Shown here: positions 16,091 to 36,042 of the stretch, piece by piece
Layout: each line of letters starts with the position of its first letter
How positions within the stretch are numbered: the first letter of the stretch is position 1
Source: Leptolyngbya sp. ES-bin-22
Lineage (GTDB): Bacteria; Cyanobacteriota; Cyanobacteriia; Leptolyngbyales; Leptolyngbyaceae
Assembly: GCA_014380065.1 (NCBI GenBank)
Contig: JACMKO010000031.1
Coordinates: 1 to 46,307 of the forward strand
Reading direction: 5' to 3'
Length of the DNA stretch: 46,307 nucleotides
Program-made: the position numbers and the translations under genes
The notes under the pieces: generated by a model
The model's database searches: none
Seen by the model: the letters and a program-made list of their open reading frames with translations, nothing else
Told to the model about the DNA's origin: nothing

Positions 16091-16198
16091 ACTTAGGAAC
16101 AAGAATTTAATCACCTCGGCGTTTTCCGTAGGGGCGCACGGCTGTGCGCCCCTACCTACGAACAATTTGTCGGTTTTATTTAATCCACGATCCTTAGT
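16091..16198. mobile_element. MITE-like palindromic repeat, copy 1
   Basis: 108 bp with imperfect terminal inverted repeats (ACTTAGGAAC / ACTAAGGATC) and central 12-bp perfect palindrome GTAGGGGCGCAC-ggct-GTGCGCCCCTAC; second copy at 35935-36042. Confidence 0.8.
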
Positions 16199-16405
16199 TC
16201 TGTTGGTTCGCACTTCCACTGCGGGCAGAGCAGACTTCTGACCTTAGATGCTACTCAGCAAGGTGCCGTTTTCCTCTCAGGTTCAGATGCTATAATCTGC
16301 TGAACTTACTAGAAACTTTACGAGACTTGGCACAACTTTTATGAGTTGACTGTTTTTGGTCAGCTTATAGTCGTTCTATAGTTTTTCGCCAGAGAGGATT
16401 GACGC

Positions 16406-17665
16406 TTGTCCCGACGCTACCTTTTTACTTCTGAATCCGTTACTGAAGGTCACCCTGACAAAATCTGTGACCAAATCTCAGATACCATTTTAGACACCCT
16501 CCTGGCACAAGACCCCCAAAGTCGGGTTGCGGCCGAGGTTGTTGTCAACACTGGACTGGTGCTGATTACAGGTGAAATTAGCTCCAAGGCTAAGGTGAAC
16601 TATATTGATCTTGCTCGGCAGAAAATTGCTGAAATCGGTTACTCTGGCACCGACAGTGGGTTTTCGGCACATAGCTGTGCTGTACTGGTAGCGCTGGACG
16701 CTCAATCACCTGACATCGCGCAGGGCGTTGACGCGGCTCACGAAACCCGTGAACAGGCTAGCGATGAAGAACTTGACCTGATTGGCGCTGGCGACCAGGG
16801 CATTATGTTTGGGTTTGCCTGTAATGAAACGCCGGAGTTGATGCCCCTGCCAATCTCATTGGCACATAGGGTTTCGCGTCGGTTGGCCACTGTTCGCAAG
16901 ACGGGACAACTGCCTTATCTGCGTCCAGACGGTAAGACGCAGGTGACCGTTTTGTATGAAGACAATCGACCGATTGGGATTGACACGATTCTCGTCTCCA
17001 CTCAGCACACGGCAACAATCGGCGACATCACAGACGAAGCCGCTGTCCAAGCAAAAATTAAAGAAGATTTGTGGTCTCTGGTTGTGCAGCCAGTGTTCAT
17101 GGATATTGACGTGAAGCCCGATCGCGACACGCGCTTTCTGGTCAATCCTACAGGTAAGTTCGTCATCGGCGGTCCTCAGGGCGATTCAGGACTCACGGGA
17201 CGGAAGATTATCGTTGATACTTACGGTGGCTATTCTCGACATGGCGGCGGCGCGTTTTCGGGCAAAGACCCCACAAAGGTCGATCGCAGCGCTGCCTATG
17301 CCAGTCGCCATGTAGCCAAAAATATAGTAGCGGCTGGTTTAGCTGACCGATGCGAAGTGCAGCTTAGCTATGCGATCGGCGTAGCGCGTCCAGTCAGCAT
17401 TATGATCGACACGTTTGGTACGGGTAAGGTTAGCGACGATCGCCTGCTAGAGCTGATCAAAGAGCATTTTGAGCTGCGTCCTGCTGGTATCATTCAAGCC
17501 TTCAACCTGTGCCATCTGCCAGGAGAGCGCAACGGTCGCTTCTATCAAGATGTGGCAGCCTATGGTCATATGGGACGCACCGATCTAGATTTGCCCTGGG
17601 AACAACTTGACAAAGCACCACTGCTGCAAGCCGCTTTAACAGAATCCCTGTCGCTAAAGCATTAA
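16406..17665 (+). CDS. metK: S-adenosylmethionine synthetase
   Basis: [50 protein letters not shown]. The ORF begins with TTG. Confidence 0.97.
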
Positions 17666-17709
17666 ACGCCAGTAGCGATTAAGCGGTTGATGTAAATAGG
17701 ACTTTTTCT

Positions 17710-17738
17710 AGCGGCTGATCTCGTCAGCCGCTTTTTTT
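17710..17738 (+). terminator. Rho-independent terminator downstream of metK
   Basis: AGCGGCTGA-tctcg-TCAGCCGCT followed by TTTTTT. Confidence 0.92.
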
Positions 17739-17812
17739 GGCAAGCTGCCTTCGTGTTTCAACCGCGATCGTCCTCTTCATTGCTTAGTAATGCTGTCTTA
17801 AGTCGTTAGTGA

Positions 17813-18397
17813 GACAATGCTTGGACGGTTTACCTGTACGAATTTAGGCAACGATTTCCTGGTAATGCTATTAGCGAATTGAATCATCGCTTTCGCGAGC
17901 ATGCAATAGGGTATCAGTACAATAATAGTCAGATCGTTCGTATTGATTCAAGTTTCATTCATGGTGAGGTTGTTGTACAAGCGCTTAGCTTACTCTCTAA
18001 TCAGCATTTCAAAGGTGCTGAGCAAGAATTCCGAAGTGCTCATAAGCACTACCGAAAAAAAGAGTATAAAGATGCAATTGTTGATGCACTGAATGCTTTT
18101 GAGAGCACTATGAAAACAATTTGTGATGAATGTGAATGGTCTTACTCCAAGATTGCTAGTGCTAAAGAACTAATTAATGTTGTGCTTGAAAAGGAGCTTG
18201 TTCCAAAGTATCTTCAAACTCATTTATCAGGCTTAAGGTCTGTCCTTGAAGCTGGTGTTCCCACTGTTCGTAATAAAACGTCTGGTCATGGTCAGGGGGC
18301 ACAACCTGTAGATGTGCCCGAATACTTAGCTACTTGTGCCTTGCACCTTACTGCTGCGAATATCGTTTTACTCGTTGAGGCATATAACGCCAAATGA
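17813..18397 (+). pseudogene. 5'-truncated remnant of an STM4504/CBY_0614 (AbiJ-type) family gene
   Basis: Track ORF 17879..18397 starts at TTG in the middle of a continuous reading ...WTVYLYEFRQRFPGNAISELNHRFREHAIGYQY...; in-frame TGA at 17810-17812 and TAG just before it. C-terminal part (SGHGQG, AFESTMKTICDE) resembles the family's C-terminal half. Confidence 0.6.
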
Positions 18398-18729
18398 GGA
18401 TAGAAAAAATAATTCATCGAAACATCGTTGAAGCATCAACTACAACCCTATTGCACACTAACCGTAATGGGATGAGCGTTAGGTTGAGGAATTTTTGCAT
18501 CGGCTGAACGAGTGCGCTAGTCTTCAGTGCAGGCATTCTCTCCCATCATTTCGCACTGTAATCAATCATCACAATAAAACTAAGCTAGTCGAAGAAAAGG
18601 TTGATGTATCTGACGGTCGATCTTGATCAAAAGACGGACTCTAAATTGTGGAAGTGATCAAGCTGCCTTCTCAATCAGCCATATCCGACTCAATCTCAGA
18701 CTATCCTAGAAAAGCTGATGTGACGAACC

Positions 18730-21066
18730 GTGATGCTGAATATTTCTCAACTGCTGGCAGACGAGCTTGACCTCAAACCTTTTCAGGTGAGCAACGCGCT
18801 CGAACTTTTTGCCGAAGGGTCAACTGTGCCATTCATTGCTCGCTACCGCAAAGAGCGCACGGGCGAGATGGATGAGACCCAGTTGCGGGATCTGTTCGAT
18901 CGCTACACCTACCTGACCGAGTTAGAAGCTCGCAAAAAAGCGATATTGGAGTCGATCGTTCAGCAAGATAAGCTCACCCCCGAACTGGAAGCCAAAATTA
19001 CGGCGTGTTTGCAAAAGAACGAACTCGAAGACCTTTATCTACCCTATCGTCCCAAGCGTCGCACTCGCGCCACGATCGCCCGCGAGAAAGGGCTGGAACC
19101 TCTGGCAGCCTTGATCAAAACGCTCAACGCGCCCAATGCTGCACCCGTCACGCTAACAACGGAAGCGGCAAAGTATGTATCTGAAGTAAAAGGGGTGGCG
19201 ACAGCGGAAGAGGCATTGAAAGGTGCGTCCGACATTCTGGCAGAGGAAGTGGCGGAAAAGGCGAATCTCCGGGCGTATTTGCGCGAATACTTCATGACAG
19301 CGGGTGTTTTGACCTCCAGGGTGAAAGGCGACCATACTGAAGGTTCGACGAAGTTTGAGATGTATCGCAGCTATCAGGCAACCGTGAAGGCGATCGCGTC
19401 GCACAATCTGTTGGCGCTGTATCGGGGTGAAGACGAAGGTATTCTTGATGTCGAACTAACCTTCGATGAAGCTACGGTGCTGTCCTACCTTGAATCGCAG
19501 GAACTCCGAGCCAAACAGCGCGAAGTCCGCGATTTTTATCGAGAGATGCTCAAGGATGCGTTCCAGCGCTTGATGAAAAATTCGCTCATCACGGACGTGC
19601 GATCGGCGAAGAAAGTAGAAGCGGATATTGAGTCTATCAGTACCTTTGAGGCAAATTTGCGAGAACTGCTGCTGTCTGCTCCTGCTGGCATGAAGCCAAC
19701 GCTGGCGATCGATCCCGGTTTTCGGACAGGTTGCAAAGTTGCCGTGCTCGACCAAACAGGCAAATTTCTGGAATACCAGGCTATTTTTCCGCATCAAGCA
19801 GCAGGACAGCGCGTGCAGGCAGGACGGACGCTTGCTACATTGATTGAGCGCTATCACGTGGAATTAATTGCGATCGGCAACGGGACGGCTGGACGCGAAA
19901 CCGATGAGTTTGTTACGGAAGCCTTGCAATCGCTGGAGCGCAAGCCCGTTAAAGTGATGGTGAACGAGTCGGGCGCATCGATTTATTCTGCCAGTCCAGT
20001 GGCAATCGCCGAATTTCCTGACCAGGACATCACCGTGCGCGGTGCCATCAGCATTGGTCGTCGTCTGCAAGATCCATTGGCAGAACTAGTGAAAATCGAT
20101 CCTAAGTCGATCGGCGTGGGGCAGTATCAGCATGATGTGGATCAGAAATTGCTGAAAAAGAAGCTGGATGAAACGGTGGAAAGCTGCGTCAACTACGTGG
20201 GCGTTGATCTCAACATGGCATCCAAAGAGCTGCTCACGTTTGTTTCGGGTATCACACCGACGATCGCCAACAACATCGTCGCCTATCGCAATGAACACGG
20301 TGTGTTTGGCGATCGCCGTCAGTTGCTCAAAGTCCCTAAACTGGGACCCAAAGCCTTTGAGCAAGCCGCTGGGTTCTTGCGGATTCGCGATGGCAAAAAT
20401 CCGTTAGACAACACTGCCGTTCATCCCGAAAGTTACAAAGTGGTGGAAGCGATCGCCACTGACCTCAGCGTTCCGCTCACTCAGATTACGCAGGTTGCTG
20501 AGCGACTGAAAAAGACCGATTTGAAAAAGTACGTGACAGACGCGATCGGTGAACCGACGCTCCGAGACATTCTGGCTGAACTCGAAAAACCAGGACGCGA
20601 TCCTCGTGCTGAATTCAAGTACGCCACCTTCAAAGAGGGCGTGAAGGAAATGTCTGATCTCACGGTGGGGATGCAGTTAGAAGGCGTTGTCACCAACGTG
20701 GCGAATTTCGGTGCCTTTGTGGATATCGGTGTCCATCAAGATGGATTGGTGCATGTTTCGCAACTTGCCGATCGCTTCGTCAGTGACCCCAAGCAAATTG
20801 TGAAGGTCGGTCAGGTCGTCAACGTGCGTGTACTGGAAGTGAACGAAAAGCTCAAGCGTATTAGCCTTTCCATGCGTGCTGATACGGCAGACGGACAAGA
20901 GCGCAGCCAGCCTCAAAGCCATTCCTCACAACCGAAACCCAATCCCTCTCAGCCAAAAGTCAATCCATCCCAACCTAAAATCAATCCATCTCAACCCAAA
21001 GCAACCACAGAGTCTAAACCTGCCACATTGGATGATCTAAAGGCAAAGTTTGGGAAGAAACGGTAA
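18730..21066 (+). CDS. tex: Tex family RNA-binding transcriptional accessory protein
   Basis: FIARYRKERTGEMDETQLRDL, YRPKRRTRA, LAIDPGFRTGCKVAVLD, C-terminal S1 domain (GAFVDIGVHQDGLVHVSQLAD). Starts GTG 18730 or ATG 18733. Confidence 0.95.
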   Translation: MMLNISQLLADELDLKPFQVSNALELFAEGSTVPFIARYRKERTGEMDETQLRDLFDRYTYLTELEARKKAILESIVQQDKLTPELEAKITACLQKNELEDLYLPYRPKRRTRATIAREKGLEPLAALIKTLNAPNAAPVTLTTEAAKYVSEVKGVATAEEALKGASDILAEEVAEKANLRAYLREYFMTAGVLTSRVKGDHTEGSTKFEMYRSYQATVKAIASHNLLALYRGEDEGILDVELTFDEATVLSYLESQELRAKQREVRDFYREMLKDAFQRLMKNSLITDVRSAKKVEADIESISTFEANLRELLLSAPAGMKPTLAIDPGFRTGCKVAVLDQTGKFLEYQAIFPHQAAGQRVQAGRTLATLIERYHVELIAIGNGTAGRETDEFVTEALQSLERKPVKVMVNESGASIYSASPVAIAEFPDQDITVRGAISIGRRLQDPLAELVKIDPKSIGVGQYQHDVDQKLLKKKLDETVESCVNYVGVDLNMASKELLTFVSGITPTIANNIVAYRNEHGVFGDRRQLLKVPKLGPKAFEQAAGFLRIRDGKNPLDNTAVHPESYKVVEAIATDLSVPLTQITQVAERLKKTDLKKYVTDAIGEPTLRDILAELEKPGRDPRAEFKYATFKEGVKEMSDLTVGMQLEGVVTNVANFGAFVDIGVHQDGLVHVSQLADRFVSDPKQIVKVGQVVNVRVLEVNEKLKRISLSMRADTADGQERSQPQSHSSQPKPNPSQPKVNPSQPKINPSQPKATTESKPATLDDLKAKFGKKR

Positions 21067-21196
21067 ACTTCACACTTTAAAAACCGGGTTTCTAACAGTG
21101 CCCTGCATAATTAAGTGGCACAGGCTTCTAGTAGCATTGGGTGCAACCTGAAGCCATCTGCGGGACGTGATAGGCTTAGCGGCAGGTGATTAGTCG

Positions 21197-21520
21197 ATGC
21201 AACCGATGCCTGTACAAACGAAAGCCCAAGTTTTGTCCCTTCTGCGGGAATATCAACAAGAGCTACAACGCCTCGGTGTTCGGCGTTGCGGTGTTTTCGG
21301 TTCGTTTGTACGAGACAATGCCATTCATGCCCAGAGCGATGTCGATATATTAGTTGCGTTCGATCCCGATCAAAAAACGTTTGACAATTTTATACACCTA
21401 TCTTTCTTTCTAGAAGATCTTTTTGGCAGAACAGTTGACCTCATCACGATCGAATCATTAAGCCCTTATATTGGTCCGCACATTTTGAACGAGGTCGAGT
21501 ATGTCTCCATCGGCTCGTGA
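21197..21520 (+). CDS. mntA: MNT-type nucleotidyltransferase antitoxin
   Basis: FGSFVRDNAIHAQSDVDILVAFD minimal nucleotidyltransferase motif; overlaps the downstream HEPN gene by 20 bp. Confidence 0.88.
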   Translation: MQPMPVQTKAQVLSLLREYQQELQRLGVRRCGVFGSFVRDNAIHAQSDVDILVAFDPDQKTFDNFIHLSFFLEDLFGRTVDLITIESLSPYIGPHILNEVEYVSIGS

Positions 21521-21845
21521 GTATCTACAGCATATTCTCGACGAGACGACCTACATCATGACGAGTTCTATAGGGTTAAACAAAGAAGCATTTGTGCAAG
21601 ATGAAACGCTGAAACGGGCTTATGTTAGAAGCCTTGAAATCATTGGAGAAGCCGTTAAACAGCTACCAGAGGCGTTGCGGCAAAAATATAGTGCAACTGA
21701 GTGGCGTGCTATAGCTGGGATGCGCGATCGGTTAATTCACAACTACTTTGGTGTTGATTACGACATCGTTTGGGATGTTGCAGCAAATAAAATTCCTGTG
21801 TTGGATGCTGAGATTAGGATCATTCTCAAGCAAGAACAGCCATAG
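21501..21845 (+). CDS. hepT: HEPN domain toxin (DUF86)
   Basis: RX4HXY motif present as RDRLIHNY; immediately downstream of and overlapping mntA. Confidence 0.9.
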   Translation: MSPSAREYLQHILDETTYIMTSSIGLNKEAFVQDETLKRAYVRSLEIIGEAVKQLPEALRQKYSATEWRAIAGMRDRLIHNYFGVDYDIVWDVAANKIPVLDAEIRIILKQEQP

Positions 21846-21990
21846 GTCGAGACATAATTTGATGTTAAACTGCGACGTTGAGAAGATTACAGGTTGGGCG
21901 ATCGAAGCTTGAACCTGAAGGCATCATGACACGGTATCAAGCATTAGAAACCATGCTTCTTAAAGAAACTCGGCATCTAGGTCAGCTTTG

Positions 21991-23262
21991 TTAAACCTCT
22001 AACCCTGGTAGCGTGACGCTAAAGGTTGTGCCCCCTTCAGCAGTGCTTTCAAGCGTCAGTTCGCCGCCATGTCGATCGACCGCTTGCTTGACAAGGGCTA
22101 ACCCCAAACCAATACCAGGGATGTGAGCTGTTTTTTCCAGTCGATAGAACGGCTCGCACAGTTTAGCTTGCTGCTCTGAGGGAATATAAGTGCCTTCATT
22201 GTGAACGCTAATGCAGGTGCGATCGCGCTCACATTGGAGCAGCACGCGCACCGTAGCGCCTGGGGGCGAATACGTGACGGCATTCGAGAGTAAGCGATCG
22301 ACCATTTGCTGGATCAGCGCATCATCTCCATAGACTGCATCACAGGCTCCGTTGCTGCTAACTGTGATGGGATGGCGATCGTCGTCACGGGTCTGCTGCG
22401 CTTTGACACGCTCTGCACATAGGGTTTCTAAATTAAGCAGTGCAGGGTTAAGGGAGGCGGCATCGGCATACAGCATCACGTCGCTGATGAGGGCATTCAT
22501 GCGCCAAACTGCCTGGTGAATGTGATCGAAATAGGTTTGCTGCTTGACCTCGATCGCACCATTCGCCTTGCTGAAGTGCACGAGCAGCTCTAGTGCTGTC
22601 AAAATAATGGTCATCGGGGTGCGCAACTCGTGAGAAACCACCTGAATAAAGTTAGAGCGCAGATCATCCAGTTCGGTTTGAGTTGCGGCGGCTTTTTGAT
22701 CAGCCACTGCTTGCTTCAGTTCGGTGATGTCTCGCACCAGCCAGCGCCAGCCCGTCAGTTCGCCCTGAGCAGTGCGCATGGCTGACGTGGTGATGACCGC
22801 TGGAAACACTCCACCCTGACGCGACTTGAACCGAAAATCCCAATTCCGTTGCTGTGGGGCTGCCTCTAAGCGGCTGAAGTAGGTACGGAAGGCGCGCCGA
22901 TCGGCGTCTGCAACCAAAATCACCAGGGGTTTGTTGACCAAAAACGCTTGCAGCATCCCAAATAAGCTTGCCGCTGAATGGTTGGCTTCCTGAATGACTC
23001 CGTTTACATCCGTAACCAGGTAGCCATCTGGGGCAAAGTCAAAGAGTTCTTGGTAGCGCTGCCGTTGGCTCTCAAGCGTCTGACGAGTCAGTAACACTTC
23101 CTCGTACTGCTGCTCGACTTCTTCTAAAACGACAGCCAGTTCTTCCATGACTGTCGAGAGTAGCTCTGGCTGATTGAGGAACTCTTCGGCATTATGTGCC
23201 AAAATTTCGATTCGGTGCTGAGCGTTGTGTAGCTTGCTGCCCATTGCTTCAATGTTGCTCAT
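21991..23262 (-). CDS. PAS domain sensor histidine kinase
   Basis: PAS region (LFDFAPDGYLVTDVNGVIQEAN), H-box VSHELRTPMTIILTALE, G-box GIGLGLALVKQAVDRHGG. Confidence 0.92.
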   Translation of the reverse strand: MSNIEAMGSKLHNAQHRIEILAHNAEEFLNQPELLSTVMEELAVVLEEVEQQYEEVLLTRQTLESQRQRYQELFDFAPDGYLVTDVNGVIQEANHSAASLFGMLQAFLVNKPLVILVADADRRAFRTYFSRLEAAPQQRNWDFRFKSRQGGVFPAVITTSAMRTAQGELTGWRWLVRDITELKQAVADQKAAATQTELDDLRSNFIQVVSHELRTPMTIILTALELLVHFSKANGAIEVKQQTYFDHIHQAVWRMNALISDVMLYADAASLNPALLNLETLCAERVKAQQTRDDDRHPITVSSNGACDAVYGDDALIQQMVDRLLSNAVTYSPPGATVRVLLQCERDRTCISVHNEGTYIPSEQQAKLCEPFYRLEKTAHIPGIGLGLALVKQAVDRHGGELTLESTAEGGTTFSVTLPGLEV

Positions 23263-25103
23263 GCTGCCACCTCATCCATAATTAAAATCACCCCGTGACG
23301 CGCCTGATTAGCGTCAAGGAGGGGATTGCAAGTCACACGACAGCAAAACGATCGCCCCCGACGGTTCATAGCCTCGATCGTGGATTCTAGCTGATCGGCT
23401 CCAGCAATACAGCGACGGATCATTTCTCGCAGTTGGTCAACGGGCAAGCCAGTCTCCAGGGTAAAAAACGATTGTCCTGCCACTTCTTCAGTGCGTAGCC
23501 CCCACAGGTTCTCGGTTTGCTTATTCCAGCTCAGGATATTGAATTGATTGTCGATCACCACCACGCCTGCCTGAATGCTAGCAAGGATTGATTGCAGAAA
23601 GGCGTTTGCCTGGTTTGCCTCATCGGTTCGCTGGTGCAATTCTTCGTTGATGGCTTGCAGTTCTGCGTTGGTAGACTGGAGTTCTTCGTTCATGGTCTCC
23701 AGTTCTTCGTTGGTGGACTGGAGTTCTTCGTTGGTCGTTTCTAGCTCTTCGTTGGTGGACTGGAGTTCTTCGTTCGTCGTCTCCAACTCTTCATTACTAG
23801 ACTGGAGTTCTTCGTTCGCCGTTTCTAGCTCCTGGCTCGATCGCTGGAGTTCGGCTTGCAGTGTGTGATGGTCGGTGACATCTGTAAACGTCATGCTCAT
23901 ACCCAGTCGATCGCCATTCTCTTGTAGCGGCGTGAACTGCACGTTTAAATACTGCACCGTACCATCAGGCAGGTAACGAGCAACGTCATTCACCGTCAGC
24001 GATCGTCCCTCGCTATGCGCCTGCTCTATACGAGACCGTAGCTCCAATGGGCGGTAGGAGAGTTCTAGGTTTTGCAGCGGATTACTAATGTCATGATCGG
24101 TCAGCCCAAAGAGCGATCGAGCAAGGGCGCTTGCCAGCACCAGATTGCCATCGTGATCCACGACAATTTGCACCGCTGGAATCGTATCAAACACCAGTTC
24201 CCGAAGCCTCATAGAGGCAGACAATTGGCTGTTCATGACGTCCTCGACCGTTTGAGCCGCGCCAAAAAAGCGATCGCGCGGGTTGAGCCTGGGCACTTTG
24301 GCAAAGATGCGGTGAGAGAGATTGATGGGCGTAAACAGGTCGGTATGGGTTAGCAGCATTTCTGCTTTGCCCAAAAAGATGACCCCTGTGTCGCTGAGGG
24401 CAAAGTGCAGGCGCGAGAGGATGCGAGACTGCGCCTCCGCATTAAAGTACATCAGCGTGTTGCGGCAGACCAGCAAATCCAGACGCGAAATGGGCGCATC
24501 TTGTACCAAATCATGGCGACCAAAAATCACCACCCGACGCAAATCTGCCCGAAAGGTATAGCGATCGCCGATCGACTCGAAGTAGCGCTCCTGAAACCCG
24601 GTTGGCAGTGGCTCTAGGTCGCGCTGGCTGTAAGTAGCGTGACGAGCCTGACTCAGCGCCTCCTCATCAACATCCGTCGCGTAGATTTTGACCCGCTGCC
24701 GAAACTCGCTGGCTCCCAGCATTTCGGTTAAGATCATCGCCAATGTGTACGCCTCTTCGCCCGACGCACAGCCCACACTCCAGATGCGAATCGGTTCCTT
24801 GGCTGACTTTGCCTTCAACAGTGGCGGCAACACATGCTCTTGCAAATAACTCCAGGCAGCAGTATCCCGAAAGAAACTGGTGACGTTGATTAAGACGGTG
24901 TTGAACAGGCTGACAAATTCCTCTGGATGCACTTCCAGATAATCGATGTAGTCTTCGTAAGACTCTACACCTCTGAGATGCATTTGCTTTTGCACACGCC
25001 GCTGAAAGCTCGATCGTTTGTAGCCTGAAAAGTCGAAGCCCCGCGATCGCTTCAGGTACTCCAGTAGCGATTCAAAAACACTGTCGTCGTCATGATGGCT
25101 CAA
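23259..25103 (-). CDS. cheR: CheR-type methyltransferase with PAS domains and coiled coil
   Basis: CheR N- and C-terminal motifs (RGFDFSGYKRSSFQRRVQKQM, WSVGCASGEEAYTLAMIL), coiled coil ELQSTNEELETTNE repeats, PAS. 4-bp overlap with the downstream kinase gene. Confidence 0.9.
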   Translation of the reverse strand: MSHHDDDSVFESLLEYLKRSRGFDFSGYKRSSFQRRVQKQMHLRGVESYEDYIDYLEVHPEEFVSLFNTVLINVTSFFRDTAAWSYLQEHVLPPLLKAKSAKEPIRIWSVGCASGEEAYTLAMILTEMLGASEFRQRVKIYATDVDEEALSQARHATYSQRDLEPLPTGFQERYFESIGDRYTFRADLRRVVIFGRHDLVQDAPISRLDLLVCRNTLMYFNAEAQSRILSRLHFALSDTGVIFLGKAEMLLTHTDLFTPINLSHRIFAKVPRLNPRDRFFGAAQTVEDVMNSQLSASMRLRELVFDTIPAVQIVVDHDGNLVLASALARSLFGLTDHDISNPLQNLELSYRPLELRSRIEQAHSEGRSLTVNDVARYLPDGTVQYLNVQFTPLQENGDRLGMSMTFTDVTDHHTLQAELQRSSQELETANEELQSSNEELETTNEELQSTNEELETTNEELQSTNEELETMNEELQSTNAELQAINEELHQRTDEANQANAFLQSILASIQAGVVVIDNQFNILSWNKQTENLWGLRTEEVAGQSFFTLETGLPVDQLREMIRRCIAGADQLESTIEAMNRRGRSFCCRVTCNPLLDANQARHGVILIMDEVAA

Positions 25104-25421
25104 AATGCTTGAATTCTAAAGAGGATGGGTGAATGCTTACGTGAAGCGAACCAGCAAGAGCATTAAGACTTTTTGCATCAGCGGTCAGTCGATCGCTGTC
25201 TCCCCGATACAACAACTGAAGGTAAAAGCCTGTCCCTGGAGACTGTGATGCCCTCACCGTAGTATCGATTCACGATCCCATATAGGAAGCTCACATCAAA
25301 TAACAATGAGATACGTATTGTTATGATTCTCTACATCTAATCACATAAGCAGTAGCAGCAACTCAGGATGTCTAAGAAGTAGTCGTCAGCCGCATCTTTT
25401 AAGATATCCTCTGAGGTGCAG

Positions 25422-26057
25422 CTAAGGATTAGTCTCGACCAGGGCGATGAGTTTAGTTGAGATTTCAGCCAGCGGCAGCACAAAATCAACCATACCCGTG
25501 CGAATCGCCGCCTCAGGCATACTAAAAAACTGCGCGGTTGCTTGATCTTGAGCAATCACAAGCCCGCCCTGCTGTTTAATTGCTTGAATGCCCGTTGAGC
25601 CATCCTTCCCCGTGCCTGTGAGCACAACCGCGATCGCTCGCTTCCCATAGCTAGCAGCTACAGACTCAAACAGACTATCGGCAGATGGACGCACAAACCG
25701 TACCCGCGCCGACTGGGTGAGATTGAAGGTGCCGTCTGGCTTAACTAGCGTGTGGTAATTGGGTGGTGCAATGTAGATGACACCAGGGCAGAGGCGATCG
25801 CCCTGCTGGGCTGCCTGCACGGGTAGCACCGTCCGTCGAGCGAGAATATCGACCATCAGCGATCGATGATTGGGGGCAAGATGCTGCACGACTACAGTAG
25901 CGGCGGGGAAGCCAGCAGGTAGCCCCGAAAGTACCTGACTCAAAGCGTTAAGCCCTCCGGCTGAAGCTGCTAACGCCACTAGCTCAAACGCAGGTTGCTT
26001 GAGGCGATCGACTGCCTCATGGGAACGACTGGTTTCGTCAGCAGTGGAAGCATTCAC
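25422..26057 (-). CDS. cheB: CheB-type methylesterase (catalytic domain only)
   Basis: ALAASAGGLNAL, VVVQHLAPNH, LTGTGKDGSTGIQAIKQQGG catalytic motifs; no REC domain. Start appears to be GTG. Confidence 0.9.
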   Translation of the reverse strand: MNASTADETSRSHEAVDRLKQPAFELVALAASAGGLNALSQVLSGLPAGFPAATVVVQHLAPNHRSLMVDILARRTVLPVQAAQQGDRLCPGVIYIAPPNYHTLVKPDGTFNLTQSARVRFVRPSADSLFESVAASYGKRAIAVVLTGTGKDGSTGIQAIKQQGGLVIAQDQATAQFFSMPEAAIRTGMVDFVLPLAEISTKLIALVETNP

Positions 26058-26063
26058 AGGTGC

Positions 26064-28421
26064 TCACTCGACCCGTTGCAGGGGCGTTAGTTTGGGATCA
26101 ACAATTTTCTGACCCATGCCTGTAAATTTGATGGCGAGGCAGATTTTGTTGCCTGCCCCAAAAATGTGCGTCACCTGACCATTGCCAAAAGCTTTATGCA
26201 CCACGCGATCGCCCACTGTCCAATCGTCCTCATGAGTATCGGGCAGTGAGGCAGTTTCAGAGGGCGTGCGGGCAGAAGCGGTAGTGCCTTTTGTCCAGCG
26301 CGTGGGAATAGCAGTGGCAACGTTAGTTTGCAGCATTTCACGGGGCAGCTCTGCCAAGAAGAGCGATGGGCTGGCAGGTTCGCGATTGCCGTATAGCCGC
26401 CGTTCGCGCGCATACGAAACAAACAACCGCTCTTGAGCACGGGTGATGCCCACATAGCAAAGGCGGCGTTCTTCTTCCAGGGCAGCAGGGTCTTCGAGCG
26501 ATCGAAAGTTGGGAAACAGCCCTTGCTCCAGCCCGACTAGAAACACGACTGGAAACTCCAGCCCCTTCGACGAGTGCAGCGTCATCAATGAGACTCGTGT
26601 GACTTCCTCTTCCAAATTATCCAGGTCAGACGACAGCGACGCGCTAGACAGAAACCCAATCAGGCTGGGATCATCCGTATTCTGCTCCTCGAATTGAAGC
26701 ACCGCGTTGTAGAGTTCGCCCACATTCTGCACACGTTCTTCGGCTTCGTCAGTGCTCTGCGTTTTCAAGTCCTGCACATAGCCCGAATCTTCCATGATGC
26801 CCTGGACGATTTCGTTGGCGGGCAGCGTGTCCAATTGCGATCGCCACTTTTGGATCATGTGCGCGAAGCTCAGCACACCTTTAGAAGAACGCCCCGCCAA
26901 CGTTTTGACCGAGGTATCGTCAATCAAAATTTCCCACAGGGGCACGTCAAGCTCCTGCGAGGCTTTCACCAGCGAATCGATCGTCGCTTTACCAATGCCG
27001 CGTCGAGGGGTATTGATCACGCGCAGCAGGCTCACGGTATCGGCAGGGTTGGCGATCGCCCTTAGGTAGCCCAGCACGTCCTTAATTTCCTTGCGATCGT
27101 AGAAGCGCAAGCCGCCCACAATTTTGTACGGCACATCATGACGCACCAGCACTTCTTCAAACGCACGGGATTGGGCGTTGGTGCGGTAGAGAATGGCAAA
27201 TTTACCCCAGTGCAGTTCGGGGTACTTCGTCTCCATCGTGCGGATTTGCTGCACGACAAATTCTGCTTCAGCCACTTCATCATCCGCGCGATAGCAGAAG
27301 ATAGCTTCACCCGCCCCGCGCGTGGGCTTTAGCACTTTGTCAATGCGCTCAGTGTTGTTTTCAATCAGGTGATTGGCAACTTCGAGGATATTTTCGGTCG
27401 ATCGGTAGTTCTCCTCTAGCTTGACCATCGTGCGCGTGTCGTCATCGGGCAGGCGATCGCCAAAGTCTTTCTGAAAGCCCATCAAAATGGTGAAGTCTGC
27501 TGCCCGGAAAGAGTAAATGGACTGATCCGCATCGCCTACCACGAAAACCGATCGATACTCCCAGTTGTCAAAGGTCTTCGTATCGTCACTATTGGTCACC
27601 AGCAGACGAATGAGATCGTACTGAGTCCGGTTTGTGTCCTGGTATTCGTCTACGAGAATGTGCCGAAAGCGGTTGTGCCAGTAGGTTCGTACCTGCTCAT
27701 TTTGGCGAAACAAGCGCACGGGCATCAAAATCAGGTCGTCAAAATCCAGCGCGTTATTCGCCACCAGCGCATCCTGGTACATGGCGTAAACATTTGCAAT
27801 CACACGACCGCGATAGTTTTGCTGCTCTCGCTCTAGATCCTGTGGCGACCAGCTCTGGTTCTTGGCGTTGCTGATGGCGAAGCGGACGGAGCGGGGATCA
27901 AACTTTTTGTCGTCCAGATTCAGCTTGTTCGTCACAATGTCTTTCACCAGACTTTGCGCGTCCGACTCATCAAAGATCGAAAAGTTGCGCTTCCAGCTCC
28001 GCCCTTTATCATCCTCAAACTTTTCGATATCGAACCGCAGAATCCGTGAGCAGAGCGCATGGAACGTGCCAATCCACAGCTCTTTGGTAATAGTCTTGTA
28101 GATTTTTGCTTTTAGCTTTGTTTGCTCGTAGGCTGGCAGCGAATCCAGCGGTTTACCAAACTGGCTGTACGCCTCGCGATCGGCAAACAGCTTTTCGATC
28201 CGCTCTTTCATTTCTCTGGCAGCCTTGTTGGTAAAGGTAACTGCCAGAATATTCTCCGGGTCAACGTGATGGGTCAACACCAGGTTGGCAATGCGAAAGG
28301 TCAACGCTCGCGTTTTGCCAGAGCCTGCCCCCGCTACAACCAGCAAGGGACCGCAGTAGTGCTCTACCGCCTGTCGCTGCGAAGGATTAAGATGTGCGAG
28401 AAATTCTGTCGTTTGTGTCAT
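26064..28421 (-). CDS. pcrA: UvrD/PcrA-type ATP-dependent DNA helicase
   Basis: LNPSQRQAVEHYCGPLLVVAGAGSGKTRAL, VDEYQDTN, VSLMTLHSSKGLEFPVVFLVGLEQGLFP. Track ORF extends to 28490; ATG at 28421 (MTQTTEFLAHLNPSQ) is likelier. Confidence 0.95.
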   Translation of the reverse strand: MTQTTEFLAHLNPSQRQAVEHYCGPLLVVAGAGSGKTRALTFRIANLVLTHHVDPENILAVTFTNKAAREMKERIEKLFADREAYSQFGKPLDSLPAYEQTKLKAKIYKTITKELWIGTFHALCSRILRFDIEKFEDDKGRSWKRNFSIFDESDAQSLVKDIVTNKLNLDDKKFDPRSVRFAISNAKNQSWSPQDLEREQQNYRGRVIANVYAMYQDALVANNALDFDDLILMPVRLFRQNEQVRTYWHNRFRHILVDEYQDTNRTQYDLIRLLVTNSDDTKTFDNWEYRSVFVVGDADQSIYSFRAADFTILMGFQKDFGDRLPDDDTRTMVKLEENYRSTENILEVANHLIENNTERIDKVLKPTRGAGEAIFCYRADDEVAEAEFVVQQIRTMETKYPELHWGKFAILYRTNAQSRAFEEVLVRHDVPYKIVGGLRFYDRKEIKDVLGYLRAIANPADTVSLLRVINTPRRGIGKATIDSLVKASQELDVPLWEILIDDTSVKTLAGRSSKGVLSFAHMIQKWRSQLDTLPANEIVQGIMEDSGYVQDLKTQSTDEAEERVQNVGELYNAVLQFEEQNTDDPSLIGFLSSASLSSDLDNLEEEVTRVSLMTLHSSKGLEFPVVFLVGLEQGLFPNFRSLEDPAALEEERRLCYVGITRAQERLFVSYARERRLYGNREPASPSLFLAELPREMLQTNVATAIPTRWTKGTTASARTPSETASLPDTHEDDWTVGDRVVHKAFGNGQVTHIFGAGNKICLAIKFTGMGQKIVDPKLTPLQRVE

Positions 28422-28547
28422 GAAGTGGGGCGATCGAGGAGCAATTGGCAGAGATGTTGCTCTTCTAAAGCGTATCGCATCCAACGGCAATCCCGTTAGC
28501 AGGATCAGGGACAGTCGCGTGGGGACGTTCTAAGTTGCTTCGAGATC

Positions 28548-28643
28548 TTGCTTTCTGTTTTGGGCTTTTGCTTCCTGCTTTTGAGCGTTTGCTTTCTGCT
28601 TGCGGGGTTTTGCTTCCTGGTTTTGAGCTTCTGCTTTCTGTCT
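28548..28643. repeat. Tandem repeat, period ~21 bp, ~5 copies
   Basis: TTGCTT(T/C)CTG units starting at 28548, 28568, 28589, 28610 and (CTGCTTTCTG) 28631. Confidence 0.85.
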
Positions 28644-28742
28644 GCTCCCGCTCAAATGTATTAAATCGAATGGAAGCCTACAGCTAGGAACGGTATCATC
28701 AACAAATAACACCCTGCTTGTGTTCAATTCGGTCTAGCCTGA

Positions 28743-29885
<1,143 letters not shown>

Positions 29886-29898
29886 GATAGGCAATTTT

Positions 29899-29927
29899 GT
29901 AGGGGCATGGCAATGCCATGCCCCTAC
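29899..29927. repeat. Palindromic REP-like element
   Basis: GTAGGGGCATGGCA-a-TGCCATGCCCCTAC, perfect 14-bp arms. Confidence 0.85.
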
Positions 29928-30029
29928 CCAGCGTTTGATCCGTAGCGATCGTTCTTCAAGTCGGTATAACAACCTGCCTTACAAGTTTTGACCATGCAAC
30001 CGCGACTTTAGTTGCCCAAAGCAGCCTTC

Positions 30030-30749
30030 TTACGCCGCCATGAACTGGCTGAGTTCTTGGGGCGCGAGATGCGGGTGAACCACAGCACCATCTCTGAACC
30101 AGATCACCCGATTGGTACGACGAGCCACATCTGCTTCATGCGTCACCATCACGACGGTCATACCGCTGGCGTTCAGTTCCGTAAAGATGTTGAGAATCTC
30201 CACTGTGGTGTGCGAATCCAGCGCACCCGTTGGCTCATCTGCCAGCAGCACAACAGGACGATTAACGATCGCCCGTGCAATGGCAACCCGCTGCTGTTGT
30301 CCACCCGATAGCTGAAACGGTTTGTTGTTCATACGGTTTGCCAACCCGACGCGAGTCAGCGCTTCCACCGCTCGATCGCGCCGCTCTCGATCGGGCACAC
30401 TGGCATACACCATCGGCAGCATCACGTTTTCGATCGCCGAGAGCTGCGGCAACAAATGGAACTGCTGAAACACAAACCCCAATTTGCGGTTCCGCACATG
30501 AGCCAGCGTTGTATCGTCCAACTGAGCGACATCTTCACCATCCAGGTAGTACTGTCCACGTGTGGGGCGATCGAGGCAACCAATCACATTCATCATCGTG
30601 GATTTACCCGAACCAGACGCACCCATAATGGCGCAATACTCGCCCTGCTCGACCACCAAATCAACGCCTGCCAGCGCCTGCACCTCTGTTTCACCAGCAC
30701 CGTAGATTTTGTAAATGTCTTCAAGGCGAATGATGGTGGAGGTGGGCAT
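30030..30749 (-). CDS. ABC transporter ATPase (MacB/LolD-like)
   Basis: MGASGSGKSTMMNVIG (Walker A), LSGGQQQRVAIARA (signature), VVLLADEPTGALD (Walker B). Track ORF continues upstream into low-complexity repeats; ATG at 30749 (MPTSTIIRLEDIYK) is likely. Confidence 0.94.
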   Translation of the reverse strand: MPTSTIIRLEDIYKIYGAGETEVQALAGVDLVVEQGEYCAIMGASGSGKSTMMNVIGCLDRPTRGQYYLDGEDVAQLDDTTLAHVRNRKLGFVFQQFHLLPQLSAIENVMLPMVYASVPDRERRDRAVEALTRVGLANRMNNKPFQLSGGQQQRVAIARAIVNRPVVLLADEPTGALDSHTTVEILNIFTELNASGMTVVMVTHEADVARRTNRVIWFRDGAVVHPHLAPQELSQFMAA

Positions 30750-30759
30750 GGGGGGAGAA

Positions 30760-30940
30760 GAAAGGATAAAGGATGAAGGATAAAAGATAAAAGTTTTGAG
30801 TTTTGGGTTTTGAGTTTTGAGTGAGGGATGAAGTGTGGAGAGAGTTTTGAGTTTGGGTTTGGGTTTCTGCTCTACTCCCATTTCTAACAACTAAAAACTA
30901 AAAACGCCTTCAGCCTTTAGCCTTCATCCTTTATCCTTTC
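30760..30940. repeat. Intercistronic repeat block bounded by a perfect 20-bp inverted repeat
   Basis: GAAAGGATAAAGGATGAAGG at 30760-30779 and its exact reverse complement CCTTCATCCTTTATCCTTTC at 30921-30940; interior has GTTTTGA/GGGTTTT-type repeats. Confidence 0.92.
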
Positions 30941-30942
30941 CC

Positions 30943-32160
30943 CTACGTGCTTCTCAGCGCCACGATCGGGTCGAGTTTTGCCGCCTGTCTGGCAGGCACC
31001 ACACCGAAGAATAGACCGATACCACCGGAGACACCGACTGCAAGGGCGATCGCAATCGGTGAAACGCTGGCTTTGAGGGGAGTGATGGCACCGACAGCGA
31101 GAATGCCGCCAACGCCAATCATTGTGCCGAGTAGCCCGCCAGCCGCCGAGAGAATGACGGCTTCAATCATGAACTGGATCAGGATGTCTTGTTGGGAGGC
31201 ACCAATCGCCTTGCGTAAGCCAATTTCTTGGGTACGTTCCGTAACAGACACCAGCATGATGTTCATAATGCCAATGCCGCCGACCAGAAGGGAGATGCCT
31301 GCGATCGCCGCCAGCATTGCCGTCAAACCACCCGTAATGGTGTCCACGATCGTCAGTACGTCTTTCTGAGTCTGCACCTGAAAGTCATCGTTATCCACAA
31401 TCTTGTGCCGCAAGCGCAGCAGGTTTGCGATTTGAAACTCGGCGGCGCGAATCGTGCTCTCGCTTTTGGCGGAAATTGAGATGGTGCTCACGTCCAAACC
31501 ATAGGGAGAGGTGCGTCCAGTGAGACGATAGGCGTGCGTTGTGATCGGGATGTAGGCAGTATTATCCTGGTTGCTCCCCAAAAACGACCCTTTTGCCTGC
31601 AAAACGCCAATCACCTGAAAGCTGTTGCCCTTAAGGCGAACCTGCTGACCGATGGGATCGCTATTGCCAAAGAAACGTGTCGCTAGATCTGCACCGAGGG
31701 CAACAACCTGGGTGTCACGCTTCACGTCTTGATCGCTGAGGAAGCGTCCTTTTGCCATATCAAAACTCCGCACAGAGAGAAACTCTGGCGTGGTGCCAAC
31801 CACCGAAGCACTGGTGTTGAGATTTTTATAGACGATCGTCATCACGCTCTGACGCTGCGGCGCAACTTCTTTAATGGAAGGCACTTGCACCGCGATCGCC
31901 TTGGCATCTTCCAACACGAGCGTTCTAGGTACGTCAGACGTGCGGCTACGGCCTTCAGGGTTTCCTGGCGAAACAAACAGCACGTTCGGTCCCAAGGATT
32001 CAAACTGCTCGGATGCCAGCTTTTGGGCACCCTGTCCAATACCAACCATTGCGATGACGGACGCATTGCCAATTACAATACCCAGCATCGTTAGCGCACT
32101 GCGTAATTTGTTTGCGGTTAGCGTTTTAACCGCCATCTTGCCACTTTCAAGTAAGTCCAT
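30943..32160 (-). CDS. MacB-like ABC transporter permease
   Basis: MAVKTLTANKLRSALTMLGIVIGNASVIAMVGIGQGA, SLLVGGIGIMNIMLVSVTERTQEIGLRKAIGA. Confidence 0.94.
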   Translation of the reverse strand: MDLLESGKMAVKTLTANKLRSALTMLGIVIGNASVIAMVGIGQGAQKLASEQFESLGPNVLFVSPGNPEGRSRTSDVPRTLVLEDAKAIAVQVPSIKEVAPQRQSVMTIVYKNLNTSASVVGTTPEFLSVRSFDMAKGRFLSDQDVKRDTQVVALGADLATRFFGNSDPIGQQVRLKGNSFQVIGVLQAKGSFLGSNQDNTAYIPITTHAYRLTGRTSPYGLDVSTISISAKSESTIRAAEFQIANLLRLRHKIVDNDDFQVQTQKDVLTIVDTITGGLTAMLAAIAGISLLVGGIGIMNIMLVSVTERTQEIGLRKAIGASQQDILIQFMIEAVILSAAGGLLGTMIGVGGILAVGAITPLKASVSPIAIALAVGVSGGIGLFFGVVPARQAAKLDPIVALRST

Positions 32161-32164
32161 TGGG

Positions 32165-32280
32165 GGAAAAGCTAAAGGATGAAGGCTAAAGGCTGAATTT
32201 TTATCTTTGAGGAAAGGGAGGGACGGCTAAAAGCTAAAGGACAAATGATAAGTTTTAGCCTTTAGCCTTAGCCTTCAGAC
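32165..32280. repeat. Intercistronic AAAGGAT/AAAGGCT heptamer-type repeats in inverted orientation
   Basis: CTAAAGGATGAAGGCTAAAGGCTGAA on the left and TTTTAGCCTTTAGCCTTAGCCTTCAG on the right; exact 10-bp inverted pair TGAAGGCTAA (32180-32189) / TTAGCCTTCA (32268-32277). Confidence 0.8.
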
Positions 32281-33639
32281 TTACTTCTGATTCACTCCTT
32301 TCGTAATGTTTTCCAGTTTCAAACCTTCGGGCAGTTCGACAAACACCTGAGTGCCTGTTTGAATGCCGCTTAAGATTTGAGTTTCGTTGCCGATCGTGGC
32401 ACCCACCACCACTAGCTGGAATTTGGGTTTGCTTTGGGCATCAGGAACAAGCACGCCCGTTTGCCCTTTATCGGTGACGATCGCCACGGTGGGTACAATC
32501 AATGCCTGTTTGAGCTGCTTGCCTAGAAACGTGAGGTCAATGTCCTTCATGCCCGATCGCAGCAGGTCTTTGCCCGTATTCAGCCCCACCCAGACTGCAA
32601 ACGTAACGACCCCTTTTTGCGTCGCGTCTTCTTCTTCAGCCTTGGGGGAAATCCGTTGCACAACGCCCTTAAAGGTCTGTTCTGGGTAGGCACCTGCCCG
32701 AATTTCAACCGTTTGCCCCAATCTAATTTGAGAGATGTCCACCTCTGGCACTTTGGCTTTCACCTCCAGGTCGCTGGCAAGGTTGGCAACATAGGTCGCT
32801 GAGGAGGTGCTGGAGGCAAAGCTAGTGGGTGCGACGAAGGCACCGGCTTCTGCGCCCGTTTGGGTGATCACACCGTCAAAGGGAGCACGAATGACTGCAT
32901 CTTCTAGCTGTACGTCAATCTTATTAAGGCTTGCCTGAGCCGCCTGTACTTGCGCCGCTGCCTGTTCCACGTCCTGAATGCGGGAGCCATTTTTCTGTTG
33001 GTTAAGCTGTTGCAAGAAGTTATTGTAACCAGCTTTTGCCTGCGCCAGATTGGCTCTGGCACTCTGCTCTTCATTCAGTACTTCGTCGAGCTTATCGCGG
33101 CTAATGGCACCGTCTGTGGAAAGCGCACGGTTGCGCTGCGATCGCTGCAATGCCAGCTCCAGCCGAGTTTGTGCAGAAGCGATTTGTGCCTTTGCCTGAG
33201 TTGCGCTTGCCTGTGCCTGGGCGATCGCTTCAGGACGATTGCCTGCCCGTAATAGCGATAGGTTTGCTTGCGCTTTCGCGAGTTCTGCCTGTGCTTGGGC
33301 GCGATCGGCTTGCAGTTCTCTGGTTTCCATCCGGGCGACGATTTGACCCTGCTTGACGCGATCGCCTCGTTGCACCGTTAGCGCTTCGAGCCGTCCTGCC
33401 GTTTTCGGATTCAGGTTTAGTTCTTTCACTGGCTGCACTTCACCGCTAGCCGTGATAATCGTTGCCGTATCTTTTGTTTGCACAGGTACAGTCAGTTGAC
33501 TAAGCGGTTGCTTTGGAGTCGTGCGAAGCAGCGGTACTGTCACTGCCGTAACGCCAACAAATCCGGCTGCTAACAGCCCGATCATCCAAGGATTTGTCTT
33601 GGTTACTTTGCCAACAAAGGGGAGTTGCATGGGAGGCAC
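32281..33639 (-). CDS. HlyD/MacA-type periplasmic adaptor subunit
   Basis: N-terminal TM, lipoyl-like halves (GRLEALTVQRGDRVKQGQIVARME; AVIRAPFDGVITQTGAEAGAFV), long coiled coil. Confidence 0.93.
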   Translation of the reverse strand: MPPMQLPFVGKVTKTNPWMIGLLAAGFVGVTAVTVPLLRTTPKQPLSQLTVPVQTKDTATIITASGEVQPVKELNLNPKTAGRLEALTVQRGDRVKQGQIVARMETRELQADRAQAQAELAKAQANLSLLRAGNRPEAIAQAQASATQAKAQIASAQTRLELALQRSQRNRALSTDGAISRDKLDEVLNEEQSARANLAQAKAGYNNFLQQLNQQKNGSRIQDVEQAAAQVQAAQASLNKIDVQLEDAVIRAPFDGVITQTGAEAGAFVAPTSFASSTSSATYVANLASDLEVKAKVPEVDISQIRLGQTVEIRAGAYPEQTFKGVVQRISPKAEEEDATQKGVVTFAVWVGLNTGKDLLRSGMKDIDLTFLGKQLKQALIVPTVAIVTDKGQTGVLVPDAQSKPKFQLVVVGATIGNETQILSGIQTGTQVFVELPEGLKLENITKGVNQK

Positions 33640-33723
33640 GATGGTTAGAGAGTAGTGCGTGGATTGAAACGTAGCCAGTTAAGCTTGTGGTCTGTGAAAA
33701 GAAAGATATCAACGCATGACCCA

Positions 33724-34272
33724 TTAACTGAGTCGTGCTGGCTCATCGACTGCTGCTTGTACGCCTTGAGGCTGCCGCCGCTCCCAGCGTTCCATCATCA
33801 GCGGTAGTTCTTGTTCCAAGAAAGCATGAACACCCTGCATTTCTTCTAGCCGTTGACGTAGGTGTGGAGTATTGCTGTCAATCAGCGTCAGTCCCTGCTC
33901 AGCAATCTCGCGAAACGTCTTAATTTGCGTAATGCGTTGCTTTGTTAGCTCAGCCCAGGCATTGGGTTTAATACGAAAGTAATCTCGACGCTGACCGGGA
34001 AGGCTGGTGCGTTCGATTAAACCGATTTGCATGAGCAGGCGCGTCATGGTACTGATCGAACCTTTGCTCGCTTGCAGCACCTCTGCCAGCTCACTGGGTG
34101 ATTGATGCGGTGGGTTAGAAATCAACAGCCAGCCCAGAATGCGCCCTGCCATACGCGGCAAGCCAACCAGCTCAAACGAGAGTCCGACCGTTTCGATAAA
34201 TTGCTGGTGTTCGAGCTGTGCAGTCGGCTTCATCAAGATTGAGTCAGGCTTCAGCGGGAATGTTGCACTCAT
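33724..34272 (-). CDS. MarR/GbsR-type transcriptional regulator
   Basis: Winged-helix pattern AGRILGWLLISNPPHQSPSELAEVLQASKGSISTMTRLLMQIGLIERTSLPGQRRDYFRI. Confidence 0.88.
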   Translation of the reverse strand: MSATFPLKPDSILMKPTAQLEHQQFIETVGLSFELVGLPRMAGRILGWLLISNPPHQSPSELAEVLQASKGSISTMTRLLMQIGLIERTSLPGQRRDYFRIKPNAWAELTKQRITQIKTFREIAEQGLTLIDSNTPHLRQRLEEMQGVHAFLEQELPLMMERWERRQPQGVQAAVDEPARLS

Positions 34273-34278
34273 GGCTAC

Positions 34279-34314
34279 AAACTAACACAATTAGTTTAGT
34301 CATTACTGAACTAA
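34279..34314. promoter_or_regulatory. Candidate MarR-type operator
   Basis: AAACTAA-cacaa-TTAGTTT (34279-34297) plus a further AACTAA half-site at 34309-34314, directly upstream of the regulator start at 34272. Confidence 0.6.
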
Positions 34315-34676
34315 GGGAATATTCTAAAAGGCTCAGACCGTTCTGTTTGCTCTGTTACACATTGTCGGTACTAAGGGCATCTTTCCCTATTAGTCGTGCT
34401 TTCAGCGTTGTCTAGTCGCTTTCAGCCGATCGTGTTTGGGTATGATAGATACGTTCGTCTTGCTGCCTGCCGATCGCCCATGTTAAGACTGAGTTCTTAA
34501 CGTTAAATGCCTCCTTCATGGAAGCATTTGACTCCATGCATCGCAGGCTCAAATACCCGTTCGTATGCTTTTTTTGTAAACATTGCGCAAACCTTTCGGA
34601 TTAGTCCACGGCTTCGATGCATTCAGTACAATATGCTGACCGATGCAATCGTGCGCTCAGACCGAGTTTAAAGCCT

Positions 34677-35891
34677 ATGAGTTCTTTGCCTGATCGCTCC
34701 CTCCAATCCTCCAAGCCTCCCTTGCCCGACGAAACCACATCCAGACCAGAACAGCCCTCCGCTGTGTCTGACTCAACGACAACGGATGCATCCCCAGCGA
34801 AAGAAGCCGCACTCGATCGCTCTGCGGCTTCAACGGCTGAAGGTGCCGCTGCGGTTGAAGCAGCGCCCTTGGTGCCCAAGCGGCCACTGATGCGTCCTGT
34901 CAGCCGCCCTCAGCCACCGCCGCCTGTTGCCCAGACGCTGGTTGCCCAGACACCGATTGCCCAGACACCGATTGTGCAAACACCTCTAGAGGTAGTGTCT
35001 AAGCCGCCGAAGCCTGAGATCGTGTCGCCGCCAACAACAGAGAGTAGTCCTGTAGAGACCTCTGAGGCTGCTGGCGGTCAAGCGTTGATTCGGCAACAGC
35101 CCATTCCACCGCCGAGTGAACCCAAGCAATACCGGGCGATCGGTCTCGTTCGGGGTCGGTATACGCCGTCTGACGAGCAGTTTACTCGTGGTGCCATGCT
35201 TACCAGCGAGGGGACTGAAGTCGAAGCCGTGCTGCTTGGGCGGGTGATGAGCCTGGTGCGGAATCACCTGGATCTCGAACAACAGCACCTGTGGGTTGTG
35301 TACCCCCGCACTCGTGAGATGCGGCAGGATCTGCACGTGCAAATTGTGGGCGTGTGGGAACCAGAAAAGTTGAACAAAAACGCTGAGGATGCCACTGACG
35401 ATGCCGCCGAATCAGACGCATCGCTGGAGCCAACCGCACCTGTAGAAGCGCCGCCCAACCCTACGCCTGATGATTCAGGGTTTGACGAAAACTACTTCTC
35501 GATTCGAGGTGAGGTGGTATTTTACTCCGCTGAAGAGGAGCAGATTGTCGTCAAAATTCAACAGGCTCCCCGCAAAACAGCCGATCGCGAAAAAGCATTT
35601 AAGCTCCGGCTGGATGGCACCTTGAATAGCCCCAAAGCGTTAGGCTACTTCTGGGATTTGCAGGTTGAGAGGCGTAATGCGGCTCTGGTAGTTACAAGTG
35701 GTACGGCGATCGGGCTAGTCCCTCCCAAGAAGAAGACCGCGACGGCTGGGTTCAAACGAGGGGGCGATCGCCGTCCACCCCAGCGTAAAGCACATTCTGC
35801 TGGTGCCAGAAGCGCTGCACCAACGGGAGCACCCCGCCGCGAACCCCTGCCTAAACCAGTCAAGCGGGCTGAGCCAGCAGGCGAAGGTTAG
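34677..35891 (+). CDS. Hypothetical protein with Pro/Ala/Thr-rich N-terminus and basic C-terminus
   Basis: Long ORF (track start 34617; ATG at 34677 plausible). Internal VAQTLVAQTPIAQTPIVQTP repeat, ordered central region (YRAIGLVRGRYTPSDEQFTRGAMLTSEGTEVEAVLLGRVMSLV...HLWVVYPRT). Confidence 0.85.
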   Translation: MSSLPDRSLQSSKPPLPDETTSRPEQPSAVSDSTTTDASPAKEAALDRSAASTAEGAAAVEAAPLVPKRPLMRPVSRPQPPPPVAQTLVAQTPIAQTPIVQTPLEVVSKPPKPEIVSPPTTESSPVETSEAAGGQALIRQQPIPPPSEPKQYRAIGLVRGRYTPSDEQFTRGAMLTSEGTEVEAVLLGRVMSLVRNHLDLEQQHLWVVYPRTREMRQDLHVQIVGVWEPEKLNKNAEDATDDAAESDASLEPTAPVEAPPNPTPDDSGFDENYFSIRGEVVFYSAEEEQIVVKIQQAPRKTADREKAFKLRLDGTLNSPKALGYFWDLQVERRNAALVVTSGTAIGLVPPKKKTATAGFKRGGDRRPPQRKAHSAGARSAAPTGAPRREPLPKPVKRAEPAGEG

Positions 35892-35934
35892 TAAAGTCGG
35901 GGCTTTAGGGCTGATTCTAAAGCCCCATACTCAT

Positions 35935-36042
35935 ACTTAGGAACAAGAATTTAATCACCTCGGCGTTTTCCGTAGAGGCGCACGGCTGTGCGCCTCTACC
36001 TACGAACAATTTGTCGGTTTTATTTAATCCACGATCCTTAGT
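35935..36042. mobile_element. MITE-like palindromic repeat, copy 2
   Basis: 106/108 identical to 16091-16198; palindrome GTAGAGGCGCAC-ggct-GTGCGCCTCTAC. Overlaps the last codon and stop of the 36038..37219 CDS. Confidence 0.8.

Follow-up and report, generated by a model that had tools for sequence, protein, structure and literature searches.

A 98-bp miniature transposon with a compensated base-pair change in its central hairpin in Leptolyngbya sp. ES-bin-22

Small dispersed repeats of 21-27 nt, some of them within minitransposons and bearing compensatory mutations, were reportedly found in cyanobacteria by Elhai et al. in 2008. Arm homogenisation and spacer inversion are two published footprints of inverted-repeat template switching (PMC8604942), and template switching has been proposed to maintain or fix hairpin stems (PMC8794818). 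The window analysed here is the whole 46,307-nt stretch of contig JACMKO010000031.1 (assembly GCA_014380065.1). It holds two copies of a repeat, at 16091-16198 and 35935-36042, which are identical at 106/108 positions by direct comparison. The only two differences are G16132/A35976 and C16151/T35995. Position 16132 pairs with 16151 in a 12-bp stem (16128-16139 with 16144-16155) of the hairpin GTAG[G/A]GGCGCAC-ggct-GTGCGCC[C/T]CTAC, and DNA folding of both copies gave the identical 12-bp stem. The ends of the 108-bp repeat match as inverted repeats at 15/21 positions. A preliminary description of this DNA had reported the identity, the coordinates and both facing differences, all recovered exactly at the same positions, and the count for the imperfect inverted-repeat ends was reproduced. 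The repeat pattern had 0 expected matches in shuffled windows, and two substitutions placed at random in 100 internal sites have a probability of about 0.001 of being paired and complementary. The features, by position in the window, are as follows.

16093-16095, unstranded: left target duplication TTA of copy 1, from the target-duplication test
16096-16193, plus strand: 98-bp miniature transposon, copy 1 (GGAAC...GATCC), bounded by about 30 aligned copies and the target-duplication test
16128-16155, unstranded: 28-bp hairpin GTAG...CTAC of copy 1, loop GGCT, pair 16132:16151 = G:C, from sequence and DNA folding
16194-16196, unstranded: right target duplication TTA of copy 1, from the target-duplication test
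35937-35939, unstranded: left target duplication TTA of copy 2, a single TTA in relative genomes G001 and G003
35940-36037, plus strand: 98-bp miniature transposon, copy 2, missing from the orthologous place in relatives
35972-35999, unstranded: 28-bp hairpin of copy 2, pair 35976:35995 = A:T (compensated change), unique in the genome
36038-36040, unstranded: right target duplication TTA of copy 2, which is also the TAA stop codon of a minus-strand gene at 36038-37219

Element family and partner insertion sequence

The true element is 98 bp long (GG...CC), lies within a 3-bp TWA duplication and has no coding capacity. The host genome contains about 40 copies or pieces of it, and the left and right flanking 3-mers agree in 25/31 copies, against 14.5 after shuffling. 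For copy 2, the empty site is preserved in G001 and G003 as a single TTA before GTCGATCG, with both neighbouring genes retained. An exact search of the contig collection with the host element gave no match; a looser end pattern showed the family in the same-genus relatives Stenomitos frigidus ULC18 and S. rutilans, which puts the host within Stenomitos or close to it. The element is a non-autonomous MITE, an ordinary small passenger transposon, and the term MITE-like in the preliminary description was right. Three truncated copies (L036, L037, L039) end at or just past the hairpin (query positions 65-73), which suggests breakage at the hairpin. MITE copies that share one flank across contigs (L007/L008, L011/L027, L003/L034) suggest chimeric assembly joins at the repeat.

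Contig C320 of the host genome carries a 1,310-bp ISAzo13-family insertion sequence (DDE transposase) with ends matching those of the MITE; its right end is GGATCGTGGATTAAATAAGACCGG and that of the MITE is GGATCGTGGATTAAATAAAACCG. The transposase reading frames match PF07592 and NF033519 (transposase match 8e-71), and another transposase copy, again with this right end, is present on contig C305. Among the things that the preliminary description had suggested looking for, further copies outside the window, target-site duplications with empty sites, and an autonomous relative with matching ends in the same genome were found. The right end of the MITE also bounds the ISAzo13 insertion sequence, so a DDE transposase most likely carries the MITE along as a passenger. 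From the matching ends, the C320 element is the probable mobiliser, and the MITE would be moved in trans by the ISAzo13 transposase. The two transposase copies are 76% identical (L069 1308-1904 and 679-1281 on the minus strand; L071 ~339-400), and the frame of both is broken at the same place (GAC ACA AAA AAA GAG AAC/T TGA). A -1 shift at the A-run restores KKRELIGQL, which suggests programmed frameshifting.

Compensated changes and the dispersed hairpin

Compensated double changes recur in other copies and in two sister families. In copy 2 (L005), a G:C pair became A:T, a version present genome-wide in copy 2 only, and no stepping-stone form of this double change was seen. Another host copy (L030) shows an independent T:A to G:C change. 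Among the G001 copies, L131 and L132 changed from G:C to T:A, and L129 changed from C:G to T:A at the loop-adjacent pair. Own family 2, another MITE family of the host genome, contributes L155 and L165, changed from A:T to C:G, and L166, whose one further changed pair may be an old subfamily state. When pooled, 8 compensated pairs were observed against 1.4 expected (P = 1.5e-5) under a null that held stem substitutions per copy constant. The conservative subset, in which strongly decayed copies were dropped and shared events were counted once, gave 5 against 0.4 (P = 4e-5); the G001 family alone was non-significant (3 against 1.2, P = 0.11). None of 500 shuffles and no slid version matched the covariation, taken as a named-structure count over 39 copies. 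An excess of complementary arm doubles, itself a footprint of template switching, is thereby present.

In two copies from relatives (L130 and L123), clustered changes outside the stem have added to the 12-pair palindrome, bringing it to 18 pairs. In L130, CTAC-CTGCAAA became CTAC-GGGAAA opposite TTTCCC-GTAG, extending the palindrome into the flank, and in L123 the extension is TTTGCC/GGCAAA. Such lengthening is expected if the flank of one arm is copied onto the other. Fourteen copies have the loop GGCT, and another 14 have its reverse complement, AGCC. This loop inversion is suggestive of template switching and was set aside as proof of it, since the loop found in relatives is the palindromic GGCC, from which two separate transitions could give the same result.

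The 28-bp GTAG...CTAC palindrome (GTAGGGACG...CGTCCCTAC) also occurs at 18 retrieved loci (L207-L224) outside both MITE families studied, and the core is therefore modular. At four of these (L210, L211, L212, L218), it is embedded in a different repeat, whose ends resemble TAATACCGATTTAAATC...TTAAATTGGTAT and which is probably one more MITE family, and at the remaining loci it lies in unrelated flanks. At 17 unrelated sites (including L073-L075), the palindrome continues into the flanks for a mean of 1.9 pairs, against 0.94 when shuffled (P = 0.0035). The continuing flank sequence at unrelated hairpin sites is often site-specific. More speculatively, the palindrome may be an independent tiny mobile unit that sits in several unrelated mini-transposons and is kept perfect or lengthened by template switching, not by selection. 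We regard this as doubtful, though worth entertaining; if true, the compensatory changes of the hairpin would imitate RNA covariation.

Origin of the paired change

The account that we consider probable joins an ISAzo13-mobilised MITE to a copy 2 pair change by template switching. An ISAzo13-family transposase acting in trans would copy the 98-bp MITE into TWA targets, and the centre of the MITE is a 28-bp palindrome of a kind also dispersed singly in the genome. In copy 2, a mutation would have arisen in one hairpin arm, and a DNA polymerase templated by the arm folded back on itself, or by the opposite arm, would have copied it over (quasipalindrome template switching). The change from G:C to A:T could have been made in a single step or via a homogenised mismatched intermediate. 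We infer template switching as the cause in copy 2 from the recurrence of such changes, and for the overall pattern polymerase template switching between arms fits better than selection or single-stranded transposition.

If selection kept the hairpin paired, as an RNA, a terminator or a structure for movement, the double change would be a mutation followed by a selected compensation. Consistent with this, 97.6% of stem cells are still paired, the stem differences between families are compensated ones, and in own family 2 the rate of change was lower in the stem (16/544) than in the flanks (122/1041), a hint of constraint or conversion that keeps constraint alive as a rival for that family. In the 27 intact host copies, however, the stem changed as fast as the flanks (11/648, 0.017, against 21/1836, 0.011; P = 0.31); there is therefore no sign of broken stems being purged, and these copies show no purifying selection on the fold. 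Many copies have stems with uncompensated changes or deletions, several of the doubles consist of two transversions, between which no wobble intermediate exists, and an Rfam scan of the window matched no family. Selection is judged unlikely as the source of the change. The preliminary description had offered selection on the folded form, single-stranded DNA transposition or hairpin-templated correction. The last gained support from the recurrent doubles, the palindrome extension and the mutually inverted loops. Selection lost it, being unseen in these youngest copies, where uncompensated stem substitutions occur at normal frequency, the very observation that the description had set against it. 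Single-stranded transposition lost it for the 98-bp element, which has a DDE partner of the ISAzo13 family and a 3-bp target duplication.

A Y1/RAYT single-strand transposase might still have moved the hairpin as a REP-like unit, with the paired change made via the folded single strand. The GTAG start resembles that of GTAG-tagged REPs, known in cyanobacteria too (PMC3733652), standalone copies of the 28-bp hairpin exist, and the host genome has three Y1 transposase genes. None of these three loci has a linked GTAG...CTAC hairpin, however, GTAG is paired with CTAC here and GTAG REPs are defined by an unpaired end tag, and the partner and target duplication of the 98-bp element point elsewhere. 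This origin of the paired change is highly improbable; the inner 28-bp hairpin by itself may still transpose as a single strand. Gene conversion or recombination with a dispersed hairpin that was already A:T draws on the similar 28-bp hairpins dispersed in the genome and on two other GTAGAG...CTCTAC palindromes, at C146 and C477. After the shared ends, these two differ strongly inside (CTTCACTGGAG and TTTTCCCGATT); a tract converted from either could have altered only the one pair and left everything else as it was, and a same-core A:T donor was not found in the host genome; we hold conversion to be very unlikely. A palindromic repeat could also have misled assembly or sequencing, as the paired change was read from a draft assembly (5.13 Mb, 603 contigs) in which one flank can be common to different contigs (L007/L008, L011/L027). 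The flanks of copy 2, in the interior of a 46-kb contig, are unique and syntenic in relatives, and G001, which was sequenced independently, has doubles of a comparable kind; an artefact is scarcely credible. The compensated change is best explained by mutation, over selection.

Comparison with known systems

Compensatory changes are usually taken to prove a functional fold, and here they are found in copies of a transposon in which the stem is otherwise free to decay. The family is a compact natural test case of mutation-driven covariation and a caution for covariation-based RNA searches where palindromes are dispersed in cyanobacteria. Compared by description, the Elhai small dispersed repeats (SDR1-8) are alike in being tiny dispersed hairpins that show compensatory changes and sit inside a MITE; the hairpin here differs in being 28 bp. 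GTAG-tagged REPs and REPINs (PMC3733652, PMC3116915) share the GTAG start, the dispersed palindromes and the compensatory changes, whereas GTAG lies inside the paired stem here and no linked RAYT gene was found. Quasipalindrome-associated template-switch mutations (PMC7202029, PMC8604942, PMC8794818) show the same arm homogenisation and palindrome extension, and possibly the loop (spacer) inversion, but here the process is read from dispersed cyanobacterial repeats and not from a reporter or a strain phylogeny. ISAzo13 insertion sequences and IS-derived MITEs (PF07592, NF033519) are alike in their matching ends, the partner in the genome, the short TWA duplication, the non-coding sequence and the approximately 40 copies. 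The element here differs from them in its centre, an unrelated 28-bp palindrome without internal transposase sequence, and its left end is more diverged than its right end. Both the ISAzo13-type MITE and the dispersed cyanobacterial hairpin are known kinds, and this family is a further example.
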